Assembly: GCF_025403485.1 (NCBI RefSeq)
Contig: NZ_CP099966.1
Coordinates: forward strand, 3,199,001-3,263,000
Direction of reading: 5' to 3'
Length of the DNA: 64,000 bases
From: Chryseobacterium paludis
GTDB taxonomy: Bacteria > Bacteroidota > Bacteroidia > Flavobacteriales > Weeksellaceae
Shown: one piece after another, positions 3,014-43,311 of the stretch
Layout of the letters: each line of letters opens with the position of its first letter
Numbering within the stretch: position 1 is the first letter of the stretch
Program-made: the position numbers and the translations under genes
The notes under the pieces: generated by a model
Database searches by the model: none
What the model was told of the DNA's origin: nothing
Seen by the model: only the letters and a program-made list of their open reading frames with translations

Positions 3014-3465
3014 ATGAAAAACTTTAGTTGGGGACATGGTGTTGTAATTGCATTAGCTGCATTTATCATTTTCATTTTATCAATGTTGTTTCTTTTTCCA
3101 AACGGACAAAAGAACTCAGAAATGGTAACTGATAATTATTACGAAGAAGAACTACAATACCAGGATGTAATAGATGCTAAAAAAGAGCAGATGGACTACA
3201 GGAAAAACCTGTATACAGCCAGGATACAAATGGAATAAAAATAGTATTCCCAAAAGATTATAACAATTCGAATACAACTGTAAAGTTTGTTTTAAATAGA
3301 ACTGACGACCAGAATTTAGATATTAAAAGATCTGAACAGCTGGATGCAAATCAATCATTTTTAGTACCATCAAAGGTATTGAAAACCGGAGGTTACACTT
3401 TACGATTGATGTGGACTAAGGACAAAATCAACTACAGAATGGATTATGATGTGATATGGAAATAG
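3014..3465 (+). pseudogene. ccoH: CcoH/FixH family protein, interrupted by a -1 frameshift
   Basis: The first reading frame (3014-3238) encodes an N-terminal membrane helix followed by NYYEEELQYQDVIDAKK and then runs into a stop after 74 residues. The rest of a FixH protein is in the next frame: it reads AKKRADGLQEKPVYSQD, then NGIKIVFPK, and ends in YDVIWK at 3465. The frames join cleanly if the six-A tract at 3179-3184 is read as seven A's, giving an intact protein of about 150 residues. FixH/CcoH is a small membrane protein needed for cbb3 assembly. Options are a one-base sequencing or assembly error, a real disruption, or recoding at the A tract. A 6-bp hairpin lies just downstream (3197-3213). 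The restored end overlaps the next gene by 10 bp. Confidence 0.85.
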
Positions 3466-4223
3466 CACTTATTTTATCGGCAATTGGTTTAGGCTTTGCT
3501 TCCGGTTTTCACTGTATCGGAATGTGTGGTCCTATTGCATTATCGATGGGATTAACAAAAAAACAAGCTACAAATTTCTACCTTCAAAATCTTACTTATC
3601 AGTTTGGAAGGATTTTTACTTATTCTCTTTTAGGTGGGATTTTAGGTATCATTGGGCAAGGCTTTGAAATGGCAGGCTTTCAACAGTACTTAACGATTGC
3701 AGTGGGAGTTTTGTTAATTATAATGGCAGTGTTTTCTTTTGGAGGAAAAGATTTTGCTTCAAGAATTCCTTTCTTTTCAAAATTTCTGTATTCTGTAAAA
3801 TCAAATTTAGGAAGACTTCTTCAAAAAGCAGATTACCGATCAAGGTTTACAACAGGTATTCTTAATGGTTTTTTACCATGTGGGATGGTCTATATGGCCC
3901 TTACCGCGAGCCTGGCAAGCGGAGGAATATGGCAGGGAGCTTCATATATGGCCTTATTTGGTCTTGGAACACTTCCATTCATGTTTGCTGTGGTTCTTGT
4001 CGGGAATCTAATGAATCAGGCTTTCAGAGTAAAAGTATTGAAAGCTATTCCTGTTATCATGATTATTTTAGGAGGTTTGTTTATTATAAGAGGTTTGGAG
4101 TTAGGGATTCCTTACATTTCTCCAAGATCAGAGGCAATGACTATTTCTAAAGATAATCAAGGCGATTGCCATTTGCCAGGGGATCATAGCACTCATAATC
4201 ACAGTTCAGTCAATTGCCACTAA
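3456..4223 (+). CDS. sulfite exporter TauE/SafE family membrane protein of the cbb3 cluster
   Basis: This is a 255-residue polytopic membrane protein with about six helices. The first contains GFHCIGMCGPIALSMG, a His/Cys motif typical of the TauE/SafE-UreH-like group found beside cbb3 oxidase assembly genes. A second conserved block (LNGFLPCGMVYMAL, about 136-149) again has a membrane cysteine. The C-terminal tail is rich in His and Cys (DCHLPGDHSTHNHSS), which suggests metal binding. Together with its position directly after ccoH (10-bp overlap with the restored frame), this points to metal, probably copper, delivery for the oxidase rather than sulfite export; that is an inference. Confidence 0.8.
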   Translation: MEIALILSAIGLGFASGFHCIGMCGPIALSMGLTKKQATNFYLQNLTYQFGRIFTYSLLGGILGIIGQGFEMAGFQQYLTIAVGVLLIIMAVFSFGGKDFASRIPFFSKFLYSVKSNLGRLLQKADYRSRFTTGILNGFLPCGMVYMALTASLASGGIWQGASYMALFGLGTLPFMFAVVLVGNLMNQAFRVKVLKAIPVIMIILGGLFIIRGLELGIPYISPRSEAMTISKDNQGDCHLPGDHSTHNHSSVNCH

Positions 4224-4234
4224 TAAACTATACC

Positions 4235-4972
4235 ATGAAAAAAATATTCTTCTTATTAATTTTAAGCCTTCTGACGCTACAGTCTTGTACAATCAATTCT
4301 GAAATAATATATCATAAAGATGCTGCTTCGTCAACGATTATGGATATCGATGTAAAAGAATTTATGGCAGAGATGAAAGCAATGACCCCAGATTCATTAA
4401 ATAAAAAGGAATTTGGTGAAATGGATAAAATGCCAACTACCTGGACAAGTATGTATGACCTTGATAAGAAAGAAGGCACATTAAAAACCAAAGATCCTGA
4501 TTCTATAAAAGTTATGAAGAAGATTTTCATGAAATCTAATAAGGAAAATAATGAATATTCCGGGTTTTCTTTAAAATTAGATCACTTCACAAAATCAGAT
4601 CTTAATTCATTAAATGGCTTAACAAAGGGAGAAAAACTTCCCATTGATCAAAATATATACAATAATTGGGATGGTAAAACGCTAACCATAAATACAGACG
4701 ATTTCAATCTTAAAAACATTGAGGATGCGCTTCGCTCTAAAACTTCAAAAGAAGAAGCATTATCTACAGAAGGAATAGTTCCAATGCTTTTTAAACAGAT
4801 TGGAACAACCTTAAAATTTGAAAACAAAATAAAATCAATCACAGGAAAACATGACTGGCTGAAACAGATCGATGATCATTCCGTACGATTGGAATACGAT
4901 ATCAAGGCCTTGTATGATAAGGATTCTAAACTTAAACATTCTGATAAAAAAGTAATTATAACAACAGAATAA
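4235..4972 (+). CDS. hypothetical lipoprotein
   Basis: This is a 245-residue predicted lipoprotein: a basic start (MKKIFF), a hydrophobic stretch and the lipobox LLTLQSC with Cys at about 18. The ATG at 4235 is preferred over the in-frame ATG at 4214, because the upstream one overlaps the preceding gene and adds seven residues before the signal peptide. The mature part is hydrophilic and rich in Lys, Asp and Ser, with no recognised domain. It follows the cbb3 cluster on the same strand by a few bases, but nothing ties it functionally to the oxidase. Confidence 0.75.
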   Translation: MKKIFFLLILSLLTLQSCTINSEIIYHKDAASSTIMDIDVKEFMAEMKAMTPDSLNKKEFGEMDKMPTTWTSMYDLDKKEGTLKTKDPDSIKVMKKIFMKSNKENNEYSGFSLKLDHFTKSDLNSLNGLTKGEKLPIDQNIYNNWDGKTLTINTDDFNLKNIEDALRSKTSKEEALSTEGIVPMLFKQIGTTLKFENKIKSITGKHDWLKQIDDHSVRLEYDIKALYDKDSKLKHSDKKVIITTE

Positions 4973-4979
4973 AAATAAA

Positions 4980-5003
4980 AACCACCGAAATTTCGGTGGT
5001 TTA
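4980..5003. terminator. bidirectional terminator
   Basis: AAACCACCGAAA and TTTCGGTGGTTT form a perfect hairpin between the converging lipoprotein gene and serS, with A/T runs on both sides. Confidence 0.8.
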
Positions 5004-5012
5004 CTTTATCAA

Positions 5013-6281
5013 TTAGCTGATTAACTCAAATTTTGCATATTCAGCAACTTTCTTGGGAAGTTTAATACCCTCTTCTGTCTGATTGTTTTCAAGCAATGCA
5101 GCCATAATTCTTGGTAGAGCCATTGCAGATCCATTTAAGGTATGAACCAACTGGGATTTCCCTTCTGTCTTATAACGACACTTCAAACGGTTTGCCTGAA
5201 ATGTTTCAAAGTTAGAAACTGAACTCACCTCCAACCACTTTTCCTGTGCTGCACTCCATACTTCAAAATCATACGTCATTGCTGCCGCAAATCCTGTATC
5301 TCCACCACAAAGTCTTAATACCCTGTAAGGAAGCTCAAGGTCTGTAAGTATTTCTTTGATATGTTCTACCATTTCTTCCAGAACAGCATAAGAATTTTCA
5401 GGCTTCTCAATTCTTACAATTTCCACTTTTTCAAACTGATGAAGTCGGTTCAATCCTCTTACATGTGCACCATAGCTTCCTGCCTCTCTTCTGTAACATT
5501 GAGAAAAAGCAGTATTTTTAATTGGAAGATCTTTTTCATCCAATAAAACATCACGGTACAAATTCGTTACAGGAACTTCTGCTGTAGGAATTAAATATAG
5601 ATCATCTGCAGCAATGTAGTACATCTGCCCCTCTTTATCAGGTAATTGTCCTGTTCCATATCCTGAAGCTTCATTTACAACGTGAGGTGGATTGACCTCC
5701 ATATATCCAGCATCCACATTCTTATCAAGGAAATACTGAACCAATGCTCTTTGCATTCTTGCTCCTTTACCTAAATACACAGGAAAACCTGCACCGGCGA
5801 TTTTTACACCTAATTCAAAATCAATAAGGTTATATTTTTTAGCCAGTTCCCAATGTGGAATTGCACCTTCTCCAAGACCTTCAACATCATGTGACTGATA
5901 GATGATCTCATTATCTTCTGCAGAAATTCCACTTTTTACAATTTCATTAGGAATATTAGGAAGCTGATATAGAATATCTAATAAAGTTTTTTCCTTCACA
6001 TCCAACTGTGATTGTAATTCTTTACTCGATTCTTTATACTGTGCTGTTTTAGATTTTGCCGATTCTGCTTCATCTTTTTTTCCTTCCTTCATTAAAAGTC
6101 CAATTTCCTTGGATATTTTATTGATTTCCGAAAGTTGAGAATCTAATTCAAACTGGATTTTTTTCCTGTCATCATCGGTAGCAATAGCATCGTCTACCAA
6201 CTCAAGATTTTTGAATTGTCTTTTTTTCAGACCTTCTAAAACGCGTTCTTTGTTTTCGCGTAAAAAATTGACTTGTAACAT
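5013..6281 (-). CDS. serS: seryl-tRNA synthetase
   Basis: This cytoplasmic class II aminoacyl-tRNA synthetase charges tRNA-Ser. At 422 residues it has normal length. The N-terminal about 110 residues form the long coiled-coil arm that contacts the tRNA variable arm (FLRENKERVLEGLKKR onward). The catalytic domain shows the motif 2 region with FSQCYRREAGSYG, the serine-site LIPTAEVPVTN, the EVSSVSNFETFQANRL stretch and motif 3 near LNGSAMALPRIMAALLEN. It stands alone on its strand with a likely promoter box at 6343-6350. Confidence 0.97.
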   Translation of the reverse strand: MLQVNFLRENKERVLEGLKKRQFKNLELVDDAIATDDDRKKIQFELDSQLSEINKISKEIGLLMKEGKKDEAESAKSKTAQYKESSKELQSQLDVKEKTLLDILYQLPNIPNEIVKSGISAEDNEIIYQSHDVEGLGEGAIPHWELAKKYNLIDFELGVKIAGAGFPVYLGKGARMQRALVQYFLDKNVDAGYMEVNPPHVVNEASGYGTGQLPDKEGQMYYIAADDLYLIPTAEVPVTNLYRDVLLDEKDLPIKNTAFSQCYRREAGSYGAHVRGLNRLHQFEKVEIVRIEKPENSYAVLEEMVEHIKEILTDLELPYRVLRLCGGDTGFAAAMTYDFEVWSAAQEKWLEVSSVSNFETFQANRLKCRYKTEGKSQLVHTLNGSAMALPRIMAALLENNQTEEGIKLPKKVAEYAKFELIS

Positions 6282-39011: not shown

Positions 39012-39103
39012 AATATATGTTTTAAAAATGTTAAATTTATACTTTATCAATATTAAAACATTTAATAATTTGTTAAAAAATCAAAACAATACCACATTTG
39101 GTA

Positions 39104-39616
39104 TTATCTTGATTTTTTCTTGTTTTTTTTTAACTTATTAGGTAATTTTGCATTTACAAATTTCACTCTATCATCTAAAAAATCGGTCATGCATTTATTG
39201 TAGCTGTATTTTTTAGCTTCCTTTAATGGCTCTAAAGCTTTCTTATACTCTAATTTAATTTCACATAATAAGGATTGATGAATCAATATTCTAGCTTTAT
39301 CTATTCCTTTGATCTTTAAAGCAAATTGAATGAGCTTTTCTGCCTCATGAAGATCTTCATTATCCAAGAGACATTTAATATAATATTGAGGAGTATTAGG
39401 ATTTGAAACATTATGATACATTGCTTCGTCAAAATACAATTTTGCTTTTTCATAGTCCATTAATATTTCGCTGTATATTCTCCCCATTAAACATAAACTG
39501 TCTGCATCTTCAGGATCGTAGGACAGCGCATAGTTCAATGCTTCCAGGCAATCCGGAAGGCTGTATGGATAATTATCCAGAGCCTCAAAGTAATATTTAT
39601 TTTTAGTTAAGGTCAT
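39104..39616 (-). CDS. tetratricopeptide-repeat protein
   Basis: This 170-residue soluble protein has about four TPR-like helical pairs: YPDCLEALNYALSYDP-type spacing near 18-36, DADSLCLMGRIYSEI with KLYFDEAMYH, then further pairs to about 150, and a very basic tail (NKLKKNKKKSR). TPRs bind other proteins. It is the last gene of the PrfH-RtcB cluster and overlaps prfH by 14 bp, so it is translated with it. Whether it belongs functionally to the repair system or is a passenger is unknown. Confidence 0.8.
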   Translation of the reverse strand: MTLTKNKYYFEALDNYPYSLPDCLEALNYALSYDPEDADSLCLMGRIYSEILMDYEKAKLYFDEAMYHNVSNPNTPQYYIKCLLDNEDLHEAEKLIQFALKIKGIDKARILIHQSLLCEIKLEYKKALEPLKEAKKYSYNKCMTDFLDDRVKFVNAKLPNKLKKNKKKSR

Positions 39617-40301
39617 TTTTTAAATTTTTAAGTTCGTTTTTTAGAACATTTCTCTTTTTTTTGAAAGATTTCTCCTCGTAATTATTTTTAAAATCTGTTC
39701 CTGAAAAAGTACGTACTGGATTCCCTCTTTGTACCTGCAGATGGTTACTCCATGTTTCCTGCATCCTTTTCTCCAGTTGTTGAATATGCAATTCCATTAC
39801 TTTTTCTTTTAATCTGATAATTGAAAGCTTTTTGTTCTCCAATTGCGAACGGGAATCCTGTGCAAAAACACTTTGCCCGGTCGGTAAATAAGTTGCCCGA
39901 ACAGCCGTGTTTACTTTATTTACATTTTGTCCGCCACTTCCCTGACTTCTTGTTGTTTGAAACTGAATATCTTTTTCATTAAAACTTATTTTTTCTACAT
40001 CTTCAATTTCAAAAATGCCAATAAACCAGTTACTTCTTTTATGCAGTTTTCGGAATGTACTTTTCCCAATCCACAGAATACTCCCCAACCAGTTTTTTAA
40101 AAATCCTGAAGTTTCCTTGCCTTTTAAAAGCAGCGTTACAGATTTCAAGGTCAGATTTTCATCCCCATTTTCACGATGGATGATTTCATATTCTATTTTT
40201 TCTTGTTTTATTTCCTCTAGAAGAATCTTCAGAACTTTAGCGACTACCCATTGGCATTCTAAAGGTCCTCTACCCGAGGTAATTTGTATTATCTTATCCA
40301 T
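39603..40301 (-). CDS. prfH: peptide chain release factor homologue PrfH
   Basis: This 232-residue class I release factor relative starts MDKIIQITSGRGPLECQWVV, the usual PrfH opening, and has the peptidyl-hydrolysis loop with [17 protein letters not shown] (GGQ at about 123-125), then SVFAQDSRSQ and a basic helical C-terminus. It is much shorter than RF1 (361 residues, also encoded here at 55708) and lacks its codon-recognition domain. PrfH is typically encoded with RtcB; in E. coli the pair repairs ribosomes cleaved in the 16S decoding centre, with PrfH releasing the stalled peptide. The start at 40301 gives a stop-A-ATG junction with the upstream gene. Confidence 0.92.
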   Translation of the reverse strand: MDKIIQITSGRGPLECQWVVAKVLKILLEEIKQEKIEYEIIHRENGDENLTLKSVTLLLKGKETSGFLKNWLGSILWIGKSTFRKLHKRSNWFIGIFEIEDVEKISFNEKDIQFQTTRSQGSGGQNVNKVNTAVRATYLPTGQSVFAQDSRSQLENKKLSIIRLKEKVMELHIQQLEKRMQETWSNHLQVQRGNPVRTFSGTDFKNNYEEKSFKKKRNVLKNELKNLKNDLN

Positions 40302-40302
40302 T

Positions 40303-40848
40303 TTACTTTGGTATTTCACTTAATCTGGGGTGACCGACAGGATCAATTCCTTTTTGCAGCAGATCTTTTGCGGCCATTACTGCCCAACATTTATCGCTGG
40401 AATGAATATTTCTGTAGAAAGAAAGTAACAACTCTGGTTTTACTATCGTAAAGCCATTGGCCTTTATTGTTTCCAAGTCGTTTCTTTCAAAAAAGTCGAT
40501 GGTGATCCTGTGAAACTTATTGTTTTCTAACTCGATTGTTTTTTCATACCTGCGAAAGTTCTCCTCACTTGGGAGATGATCATATCGGGTCCAAACCTTT
40601 TGAAAGTCTTCCTTTTGGAGGATCATCACAACCTCAGCAACGTTTTCTTTTTCTACAAAAACATCAATATCCTTATGATCATGAGCATGTTTATATTCTG
40701 TATGTTCTATTTCAGACATAAAATGCCATGCCCAACCTCCAGATAAAATGATTTTATTTTTTAATTTTTCTAAAATTTCAAGTCCGTATTGAATTCTAAA
40801 TTCCGGCCAGACCTCGCCGTATCTTTTTATGTTATGTGGTGCTCCCAT
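40303..40848 (-). CDS. nucleotidyltransferase-fold protein in the RtcB-PrfH cluster
   Basis: This 181-residue protein has the hallmarks of a polymerase-beta-type nucleotidyltransferase: ILSGGWAWHF (G-G motif near 36-40), DHKDIDVFVE (DxD near 59-61) and a third acidic residue in RITIDFFE near 117. A helical tail follows (CWAVMAAKDLLQKG). The layout resembles AbiEii/LinA-like stand-alone nucleotidyltransferases. It lies between rtcB and prfH, with its stop 1 bp from the prfH start, implying coupled translation. Possible roles are adding nucleotides or modifying RNA in repair, or an antibiotic- or toxin-type activity. The assignment is by motif, not by comparison with a known family member. Confidence 0.72.
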   Translation of the reverse strand: MGAPHNIKRYGEVWPEFRIQYGLEILEKLKNKIILSGGWAWHFMSEIEHTEYKHAHDHKDIDVFVEKENVAEVVMILQKEDFQKVWTRYDHLPSEENFRRYEKTIELENNKFHRITIDFFERNDLETIKANGFTIVKPELLLSFYRNIHSSDKCWAVMAAKDLLQKGIDPVGHPRLSEIPK

Positions 40849-40976
40849 TTCTTTTGTTTTTAAATGTTTTTAAATGTTGTCAATTCGAATGAAACAAAGT
40901 ATCATTAAAAATCTTTATTATTTAGACTCTTCATTCCCTTCTGTTTCATTCCAAATGACTGCTTTTTTTTAGCCCT

Positions 40977-41040
40977 GATTGTAATGAAAATCCTTTTGTT
41001 TTTCTTTGACGTAAGGAAAAGCAAAAGATTGCAATGGAAA
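40977..41040. repeat. imperfect repeat element in the gap between rtcB and the nucleotidyltransferase gene
   Basis: GATTGTAATGAAAA (40977-40990) and GATTGCAATGGAAA (41027-41040) are near-identical direct repeats. They flank a hairpin in which 40993-41004 pairs with 41016-41027 at 11 of 12 bases. I recall similar GATTG(C/T)AA elements elsewhere in Chryseobacterium genomes. Confidence 0.5.
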
Positions 41041-41060
41041 GCAGGATTAAGCTCCTAATT

Positions 41061-42452
41061 CTACTTATCCATTCTCACAATCCTTGGTTGGAAAGTTCCT
41101 AGAATATCGACCAGCTCACTCTGTGCGTTCATCACTTCATTGATGTCTTTGTAAGCCATCGGTGCTTCTTCAGCGTTCCCACCCATTAAAACCACATTCT
41201 TCAGTTTTAGTTCTTTTTTGATGTCATTTTGAGTGAAAAGATTACGGCATTCGCCTCTGGAATATGCTCTTCCTGCTCCATGTGACGCAGAATTTAAAGA
41301 ATCAGGATTTCCTTTTCCTTTTACGATAAATCCTTTTGCTGTCATTGATCCAGGAATCATTCCCAGCTCATTTTCATTGGCAGGGGTTGCACCTTTCCGG
41401 TGAACGATCACTTCTTTTCCGTTATGGATTTCTTTCCAAGCGAAATTGTGATGGTTTTCAATTCTGGCTTTTACCCTTCCTCCAACTGCTTTCACGAGTC
41501 TTCTATGAATATCGTCATGACAAGCTGAGGCATAATCTCCCGCCAGATTCATTGCTGTCCAATATTCCAATCCCAGATGCGTATTCAAATCCAGCCAGGC
41601 GAAATTTTGAGCTTCTTTTGGTAATGGACATTGCTCTGTTGCTACTCTGGAATAATATTGAGCAATTTCAGCTCCCAATCCCCGCGAACCGCTGTGTGAA
41701 AGAATACCCAGGTATTTTCCTTTTGGAAGTCCAATCTGTTGATCTTCTTCTGTAATTTCAACCTCACCAAATTCCACGAAGTGATTTCCACCACCTGAAG
41801 AACCCATTTGCTTGATAGCCTTCCCTTTTAATCTTCTCAAAATTGGAATCATATCGAATGTGTCCCTATCGAAAATCTCGTGTTCTACATGAGATTTATG
41901 CGTTTCATACATTCCGAATTTGGTGTGTTCGGACAGTGCTTTTTCATATTTATCTTTAGCACCGTGCAGATATGAAATTGGGGTATCCAAAATACTGAGA
42001 CTCATTCTGCAACCGATATCCATTCCTACTCCATAAGGAATTACGGCATTGTCTACGGCGAGAACTCCACCGATTGGAAGTCCATAACCACTATGTGCAT
42101 CAGGCATTAAAGCTCCCTGTATTGAAATTGGAAGTTTCAACGCGGTGTACAATTGGTTCTTTGCTTCATCAGAAATGTTGTTTCCGAAAATATGGAAAGA
42201 AGTACGGTTCGTATTCAACATTCTTTTCTCTGTTTTCTTTGATGATAGTAGAGCTTCCGCTATCTGTCCAAAGGTTAAATCTTTTTCAAAATCTTCTGGG
42301 TTGACCAGAATTTCTTTTAAAAGACCTTTCACATGATGAATATTCTTTGTTGCAAAATTTCTTTTCATGACTTCCAAAGCAATATTGATACTTTGATTAT
42401 TTGGATAGCCTAATTTTAATATATCTTTTCCTTTTAGTTTTAAATTTCCCAT
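41061..42452 (-). CDS. rtcB: RNA-splicing ligase RtcB (RtcB2-type)
   Basis: RtcB joins RNA 3'-phosphate or 2',3'-cyclic phosphate ends to 5'-OH ends using GTP and Mn2+. The 463-residue protein keeps the metal and guanylation residues: GVGMDIGCRMS (Asp, Cys), GGGNHFVEFG, SHSGSRGLG, HRKGATPA and SASHGAGRAYSR (nucleophilic His391). It is close to the RtcB found with PrfH, which repairs damaged ribosomal RNA. The start at 42452 (MGNLKLKGKD) is preferred; an in-frame ATG at 42470 is possible. It follows the basic hypothetical gene by 8-26 bp and precedes the nucleotidyltransferase gene by 212 bp. Confidence 0.93.
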   Translation of the reverse strand: MGNLKLKGKDILKLGYPNNQSINIALEVMKRNFATKNIHHVKGLLKEILVNPEDFEKDLTFGQIAEALLSSKKTEKRMLNTNRTSFHIFGNNISDEAKNQLYTALKLPISIQGALMPDAHSGYGLPIGGVLAVDNAVIPYGVGMDIGCRMSLSILDTPISYLHGAKDKYEKALSEHTKFGMYETHKSHVEHEIFDRDTFDMIPILRRLKGKAIKQMGSSGGGNHFVEFGEVEITEEDQQIGLPKGKYLGILSHSGSRGLGAEIAQYYSRVATEQCPLPKEAQNFAWLDLNTHLGLEYWTAMNLAGDYASACHDDIHRRLVKAVGGRVKARIENHHNFAWKEIHNGKEVIVHRKGATPANENELGMIPGSMTAKGFIVKGKGNPDSLNSASHGAGRAYSRGECRNLFTQNDIKKELKLKNVVLMGGNAEEAPMAYKDINEVMNAQSELVDILGTFQPRIVRMDK

Positions 42453-42478
42453 TGTTTTTGTTTTAAACATTTTTGGAC

Positions 42479-43216
42479 CTATAAGTCCTGTAAATAGTCT
42501 GCAAACTCCGTTGCTGACATTTTGTAGTGAAAGTATTTTTTACTTTCGATAAGATTAATTTTTTCATCTTCACACCTCCATTTGCGCGATTTTCCGCGGA
42601 TTTTATTACAAATAATACCTAGGATTCTATATTGATCTAAATAGGATTCCAGCGCTTCATACTCTTTTTCTAATTCCGAGTCTAAAGGTTTGTAATGCGT
42701 GATCATATAAGGTCTTATCCTTAAAGTGAATCGCCAGGGTTCGATGAATTCGTAGTAAGTATCATATCTTTTTCTAAATGGATTGTATTCTTCTTTCTTC
42801 AGAAAGTATTGTCTTTCTCTTTCCGTAAGAGTGAACTTTGGATCAGCCCAGCTAAATGAAGAAATTCTCTCGAGCTTTTGCTCCCTTGGTATATATATTC
42901 TCCGACCGAATTTTCTTTTCTTTTTTACAAATTTTCGATTTTCGGAATAGGTATACGTATTAATCTTATTCAAAATTCCTTCAAAGAAATTTCCGTCATT
43001 AGATGTTTTTATGTCGTCTCTAACAACAAATGATCTTACAAATCCTTTTTGATAAGGTTTTTCAAGAGGCACTAAAGGGATATTTCTTCTTATTTCCCAT
43101 AATTCCTTACTACGTTTATATTTTTTTCTTATCTGTTTTTCTTCGTCTTTTTTTATTATCCTTTTTCTGCTTTTGATGCTTCTCAAGCGATGAAACAGAA
43201 GATTATTATTTTCCAT
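42479..43216 (-). CDS. very basic hypothetical protein, first gene of the RtcB-PrfH cluster
   Basis: This 245-residue protein has no recognised domain. It is strongly basic: the first 40 residues are rich in Lys/Arg (SKELWEIRRN and neighbours), a KKKRKFGRRIYIPREQ patch lies near 100, and a GKSRKWR patch lies near 213. Many aromatic residues also occur (YYEFIEPWRF, RPYMITHYKP). There is no signal peptide, membrane helix or zinc motif. The charge suggests RNA or ribosome binding. It is the first gene of the minus-strand cluster, so it may be a partner of RtcB and PrfH. I do not recognise it. Confidence 0.7.
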   Translation of the reverse strand: MENNNLLFHRLRSIKSRKRIIKKDEEKQIRKKYKRSKELWEIRRNIPLVPLEKPYQKGFVRSFVVRDDIKTSNDGNFFEGILNKINTYTYSENRKFVKKKRKFGRRIYIPREQKLERISSFSWADPKFTLTERERQYFLKKEEYNPFRKRYDTYYEFIEPWRFTLRIRPYMITHYKPLDSELEKEYEALESYLDQYRILGIICNKIRGKSRKWRCEDEKINLIESKKYFHYKMSATEFADYLQDL

Positions 43217-43289: not shown

Positions 43290-43311
43290 ATCAACTAAAA
43301 AAATAGTTGAT
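43290..43311. other. hairpin upstream of the RtcB-PrfH cluster
   Basis: ATCAACTA and TAGTTGAT pair with a 6-A loop, 74 bp before the first gene. It lacks a T run, so it could be an mRNA leader structure or an operator. Confidence 0.4.

Follow-up and report, generated by a model that had tools for sequence, protein, structure and literature searches.

A predicted ribosome-rescue and RNA-repair operon around rtcB and prfH in Chryseobacterium paludis

What task brings the RNA ligase RtcB and the release factor PrfH (RFH) together with three further proteins in one run of genes? The question arises in a stretch of 64,000 nucleotides (hereafter the window) from the 5.05-Mb, one-contig genome of Chryseobacterium paludis (contig NZ_CP099966.1, positions 3,199,001 to 3,263,000). 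An initial annotation had described a five-gene minus-strand cluster there, and we indeed found all five open reading frames (ORFs) open on that strand, in the order basic protein, rtcB, nucleotidyltransferase (NTase), prfH and TPR protein. We show that the NTase and basic genes keep company with prfH across the genus and the phylum, and propose that the locus is probably a chromosomal ribosome-rescue and RNA-repair operon, the operon itself being predicted. The five genes, in window coordinates, are:

42479..43216, minus strand: basic protein gene, the first gene, an open ORF of 245 aa
41061..42470, minus strand: rtcB, RtcB RNA ligase of the PrfH-linked type (PF01139); the start common to relatives is probably 42452
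40303..40848, minus strand: NTase gene, a Pol-beta-superfamily nucleotidyltransferase of 181 aa
39603..40301, minus strand: prfH, PrfH (RFH) release factor of 232 aa with GGQ (TIGR03072)
39104..39616, minus strand: TPR gene, a TPR protein of 170 aa with a lysine-rich C-terminal tail

Linkage of the NTase and basic genes to prfH

Gene order was surveyed in a genus sample of 118 genomes and a phylum sample of 395 genomes. In the genus, 116 genomes had prfH, with two copies broken and a third cut short by the contig's end. The NTase matched in 84 genomes, in one of them as a remnant of 26 residues, and 74 genomes had the basic gene (6 copies clearly broken or fragmentary); 62 genomes carried both extra genes, 22 the NTase only and 12 the basic gene only. 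Measured from start to start, 83 of the 84 NTase matches were 85-1272 bp away from prfH; in the remaining genome a contig break puts the match and a truncated prfH on separate contigs. Similarly, 73 of the 74 basic matches were 2.2-3.9 kb from prfH, the exception being genome G396, which has no prfH. In the phylum sample, prfH scored above cut-off in 28 of 395 genomes, and the NTase family (8 genomes) and the basic family (12 genomes) were confined to these 28 and stood beside prfH by coordinates (hypergeometric 2e-10 and 1e-15, respectively, with shared ancestry ignored). The two genes are thus grouped with prfH beyond chance. The annotation's expectation that they co-occur with rtcB-prfH beyond this strain was borne out, and an independent scatter of their homologues was not found; this near-exclusive linkage supports its idea of an extended ribosome-repair cluster.

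In G396, a tandem-repeat array of ~226-bp units (L198 4117-5916) occupies the place expected for prfH, and the 3′ end of rtcB (its final 36-55 codons) recurs in seven of its pieces; basic and rtcB are intact, NTase and prfH were not found, and what we read as an Xre-like gene comes next. The second genus genome lacking prfH, G469, gave no RtcB match either.

We then compared 79 loci (the window, 51 named loci and 27 others), not all of them independent. Of the genes counted, rtcB occurred in 75 loci (on the same strand in the neighbourhood of prfH, with the NTase gene separating the two in the window) and TPR in 70. Fewer loci had the basic gene (36), the NTase (29), a zinc-ribbon protein (14) or an ERI1-like exonuclease (10). 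Plain rtcB-prfH-TPR was the commonest form (22 loci), while the window's five-gene order occurred in 8 loci, the window counted. The rtcB-prfH interval is a variable slot that is empty or is filled by the NTase, by the zinc-ribbon protein, by the two together or by an unknown gene. Such unknown genes (clusters 35 and 37) lie within the operon of a few Chryseobacterium (L046 7352-7996; L053 7378-7998 and 4849-5337; L058 4905-5390), and the two L053 inserted proteins examined had no Pfam match above cut-off. One prfH locus, L073, has basic, TPR, NTase and exonuclease genes, and rtcB was not found within the 16.7 kb examined.

Proposed function and alternatives

The core of the locus, judged from its sequence, appears to support a repair function. 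PrfH exceeded its curated cut-off (TIGR03072, 215.7 bits vs 166.65) and, aligned with E. coli PrfH, keeps GGQ (SGGQNVNK) and lacks the N-terminal GTPase-interacting domain; the RF2 model aligned to it only from position 118. RtcB scored 271 bits on PF01139 (cut-off 27), and D151, C154, H230, H259, H341 and H397 were invariant in 10/10 RtcBs aligned; C154, H230, H259, H341 and H397 are presumably ligase residues. They are intact, and a separate second RtcB elsewhere in the genome shares 27% identity and scored just 56.4 and 79.8 on the RtcB2 equivalog models TIGR03073 and NF007153.

The partners were weaker in sequence signal. The TPR protein matched sub-cut-off models only (TPR_12, 23.8 vs 30.1), and its lysine-rich tail is kept in 8/8 sequences aligned. 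The basic protein (59 K+R vs 36 D+E) had zero Pfam or NCBIfam matches at E 1; its AF2 model reached a mean per-residue confidence (pLDDT) of 81.2, with 10-residue means of 84-95 over residues 21-200 and values below 50 at residues 209-233, and a PDB fold comparison gave no clear match. One neighbourhood, L132, holds two basic-protein paralogues (3298-3969 and 4727-5419, prfH orientation). The NTase likewise matched sub-cut-off models only (PF14907, 19 vs 31.2; PF10706, 18.0 vs 21); its predicted structure is a confident NTase fold of the Pol-beta type, ANT/Lnu/MenT-like in the model, and its catalytic acids are invariant across 55 sequences.

In E. coli RtcB2-PrfH, PrfH releases the peptide from colicin E3-cleaved ribosomes and RtcB2 re-ligates the 16S rRNA, giving protection against colicin E3, and primer extension led the authors to favour possible further rRNA degradation after the cut (the sections of PMC9223846 drawn on here). 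By analogy, PrfH of the window would enter 70S ribosomes jammed by 16S rRNA cut in the decoding centre, its GGQ would free the peptide, and RtcB would then re-seal the cut rRNA ends. The TPR protein, through its lysine-rich tail, and the basic protein would most likely dock the enzymes on the damaged ribosome or rRNA. The NTase most likely acts at an RNA 3′ end, where it would put back or add nucleotides if trimming came after cleavage, which is the weakest step of the proposal; repair of trimmed RNA has been suggested for such an NTase before (PMC6514570, in the part concerned with these systems).

Several observations weigh against this proposal. The window RtcB fell below the cut-offs of both RtcB2 equivalog models (144.8 vs 271.8 for TIGR03073; 176.6 vs 407 for NF007153), as did three further PrfH-linked RtcBs. 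An NTase product ends in a 3′-OH, which RtcB is not known to join to a 5′-OH, the ligase needing an end that carries a phosphate or a cyclic phosphate, and none of the five genes resembles a cyclase or 3′-end kinase; a simple refill followed by RtcB is therefore strained, and another step would be needed. The NTase and basic genes are both missing from 21 of the 116 prfH genomes and so are dispensable, and broken copies occur (6/74 basic, 1/84 NTase). G396 keeps basic and rtcB without prfH. Moreover, high-level RtcB2 alone protected E. coli, and the E. coli module gave no protection against two tRNA-cleaving colicins, so that a tRNA substrate is less likely there (same sections of PMC9223846).

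One extension of the repair proposal would make the NTase and the ERI1-like 3′-5′ exonuclease a 3′-end remodelling arm, giving a version of RtcB-PrfH that repairs RNA with lost nucleotides, beyond clean cuts. The exonuclease follows the NTase, itself placed after TPR, in four loci (Aquimarina L073 and L075, Kordia L074, Dokdonia L080), and elsewhere, in Capnocytophaga leadbetteri (L067), its best PDB sequence match was ERI1 (E 8e-19). It is not exclusive to prfH: 28/390 genomes have it, only 3 of these 28 beside prfH, and the window's genome carries two tandem copies far from prfH. In genus g4, the exonuclease was present in 11/15 sampled genomes that have prfH and in one of at least 8 that lack it (one-sided Fisher 0.008). 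This association is only suggestive, because it was counted by hand, with at least 8 prfH-less genomes listed, from two slightly different samples (395 and 390 genomes). We consider the remodelling arm unlikely.

The NTase might instead act as a MenT-like brake that nucleotidylates either the 3′ ends of tRNA or a translation factor, holding translation while RtcB-PrfH work, with no part in RNA repair. ANT(2'')-Ia, LnuA and MenT all have the Pol-beta-type fold in common with the window NTase, but share just 9-16% identity with it in structural alignments, and the drug-NTase models stay under cut-off. We regard the brake as improbable.

It is more doubtful still that the NTase inactivates a small molecule hitting the decoding centre, so that drug inactivation is paired with ribosome repair. 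LnuA was its top Foldseek match (E 1.9e-4, the sole match below 0.001), ANT(2'')-Ia and LnuA were the top VIA matches, and there is a faint Lnu and PF10706 sequence signal; however, the cut-offs for ANT(2'')/Lnu drug nucleotidyltransferases were not reached (18.0 vs 21 for PF10706, as above; 21.3 vs 300 for Lnu(C)), 46 of the 181 positions are invariant in the 55 sequences, and the gene is linked to prfH.

Equally hard to credit is the other half of the annotation's reading, a defence island, here taken as mobile and anti-phage: RtcB-PrfH has been termed a counter-conflict system, sporadic and horizontally spread (in the portion of PMC6514570 used here), PrfH relatives occur in 36/72,556 plasmid records (E 1e-20; some chromosome-sized) and 30/50,697 phage records (E 1e-10; a coverage of 80% in just 2), and the accessory genes vary, but all plasmid and phage matches are below 60% identity, prfH is in nearly every sampled genome of the genus, PADLOC 2.0.0 matched 0/5 proteins at E 0.01, and flanking genes recur among loci. 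Cluster 6 lay near 22 of 52 loci and cluster 5 near 24; we read them as methylmalonyl-CoA mutase-like and as a MeaB/ArgK-like GTPase, respectively. The extended repair cluster thus stands on its linkage, the defence island is weakly supported, and the pattern resembles an operon of the genus core whose accessory genes vary.

Taken together, these results turn a linkage formerly suggested from gene neighbourhoods into one that is counted and near-exclusive. The intact active site of the NTase offers a handle on how cells mend ribosomes that are cut, then trimmed, and the near-universal presence of prfH in the genus suggests that ribosome damage there is everyday rather than occasional.

Junctions, control region and related loci

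Four further elements lie between or around the genes:

40967..41052, plus strand: Flavo-1 RNA element in the rtcB-NTase gap (RF01705, 76.8 bits, E 2.9e-16)
43292..43309, unstranded: conserved dyad, CAACT-N8-AGTTG, lying 75 nt ahead of the first gene's start codon
43217..43291, minus strand: predicted leader, from the dyad to the first ATG, with a putative hairpin
39083..39110, minus strand: inverted repeat then a T-rich run just past the TPR gene, a possible terminator

The junctions agree with those first annotated and with the ORF coordinates: basic ends 8 nt before the first ATG of rtcB and 26 nt before the MGNLKLKGK start (42452) common to relatives, 212 nt separate rtcB from NTase, 1 nt separates NTase from prfH, and prfH and TPR overlap by 14 nt. 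The rtcB-NTase junction is looser because the Flavo-1 RNA, well above its gathering threshold of 42 bits and on the opposite strand to the operon, sits in the gap. Similar GGAGCT...GGGGCTA elements were seen by eye upstream of rtcB in several loci as well (e.g. L036-L041, L050, L066).

The dyad, 18 bp with an A-T-rich centre, stands upstream of the first operon gene, be that basic or rtcB. Among 41 related loci it was exact in 29, had one mismatch in 4 and was not found in 8, with diverged sequence flanking it, and the exact dyad was in 0/38 other loci scanned. Two of the loci missing it, L053 and L058, have both arms altered and, by eye, four of five pairs kept. The dyad could serve as an operator or form a hairpin in the leader. 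It was rejected as a regulon signal, since its 6 sites genome-wide were no more than the 8 of a reversed control. The leader is predicted to fold into a hairpin (-19.7 kcal/mol, z -2.2 vs single-base shuffles), and its sequence is not conserved among relatives. The inverted repeat past TPR has 12-nt arms, 83% complementary, and a terminator scan did not call it.

Other loci drew attention in their own right. The tandem exonucleases of the window's genome lie in L201 (2195-6588; C1:2572000-2582000), possibly a second RNA-repair locus of that genome. Their neighbours there are a Band-7 slipin, an RNase H-like protein and cREC_REC, a cyclic-phosphate-processing receiver domain protein. In L071 (2655-5833), and similarly in L072, L074, L076, L077 and L079, a second, distant RtcB gene precedes the prfH-linked one by ~1-4 kb. 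In L071 a poly(A)-polymerase/CCA-type nucleotidyltransferase comes after this distant gene, and L072 has a slipin downstream too.

Comparison with known systems

The E. coli RtcB2-PrfH pair (PMC9223846, in the same sections; PDB 7sa4) has the same two core enzymes in adjacent genes, with GGQ and the ligase residues common to both. It differs in that its locus (L199) has none of the window's accessory genes, its RtcB2 (379 aa) is 30% identical to the window RtcB, and its PrfH lacks, in the alignment, the basic C-terminal extension of the window protein. Very close is the Capnocytophaga-like PrfH of PDB 9mor/9mq4, which matched the window PrfH at E 4.9e-102 and that of Capnocytophaga leadbetteri L067 at 4e-137. 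Compared with the window, L067 has exonuclease and zinc-ribbon genes, and NTase and TPR were not found there.

The annotation had taken the known pair to comprise these two genes. This does not stand: in 2019 Burroughs and Aravind (PMC6514570, section 2.4 and figure legends) had already placed accessory genes of the TPR, Pol-beta NTase, zinc-ribbon and charged-helical kinds around RFH-RtcB, and the extended cluster is not new, because its main partners are there. Common to those systems and the window are prfH, rtcB, TPR (via sub-threshold models only in the window) and a Pol-beta NTase without a specific tie to RlaP, and probably a charged-helical protein; the basic protein is likely item 4 of that list, whose description (charged-helical, no detectable homologues) it fits, and the zinc-ribbon protein is present in relatives of the window locus. 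A term search of the main text found no ERI1, RNase T, DEDD or Chryseobacterium, and section 2.4 has neither an upstream dyad nor counts. Relative to that section and the figure legends, the additions made here are the counted exclusivity, the variable slot, the dyad, the Flavo-1 insert, the NTase fold and the ERI1-like exonuclease.
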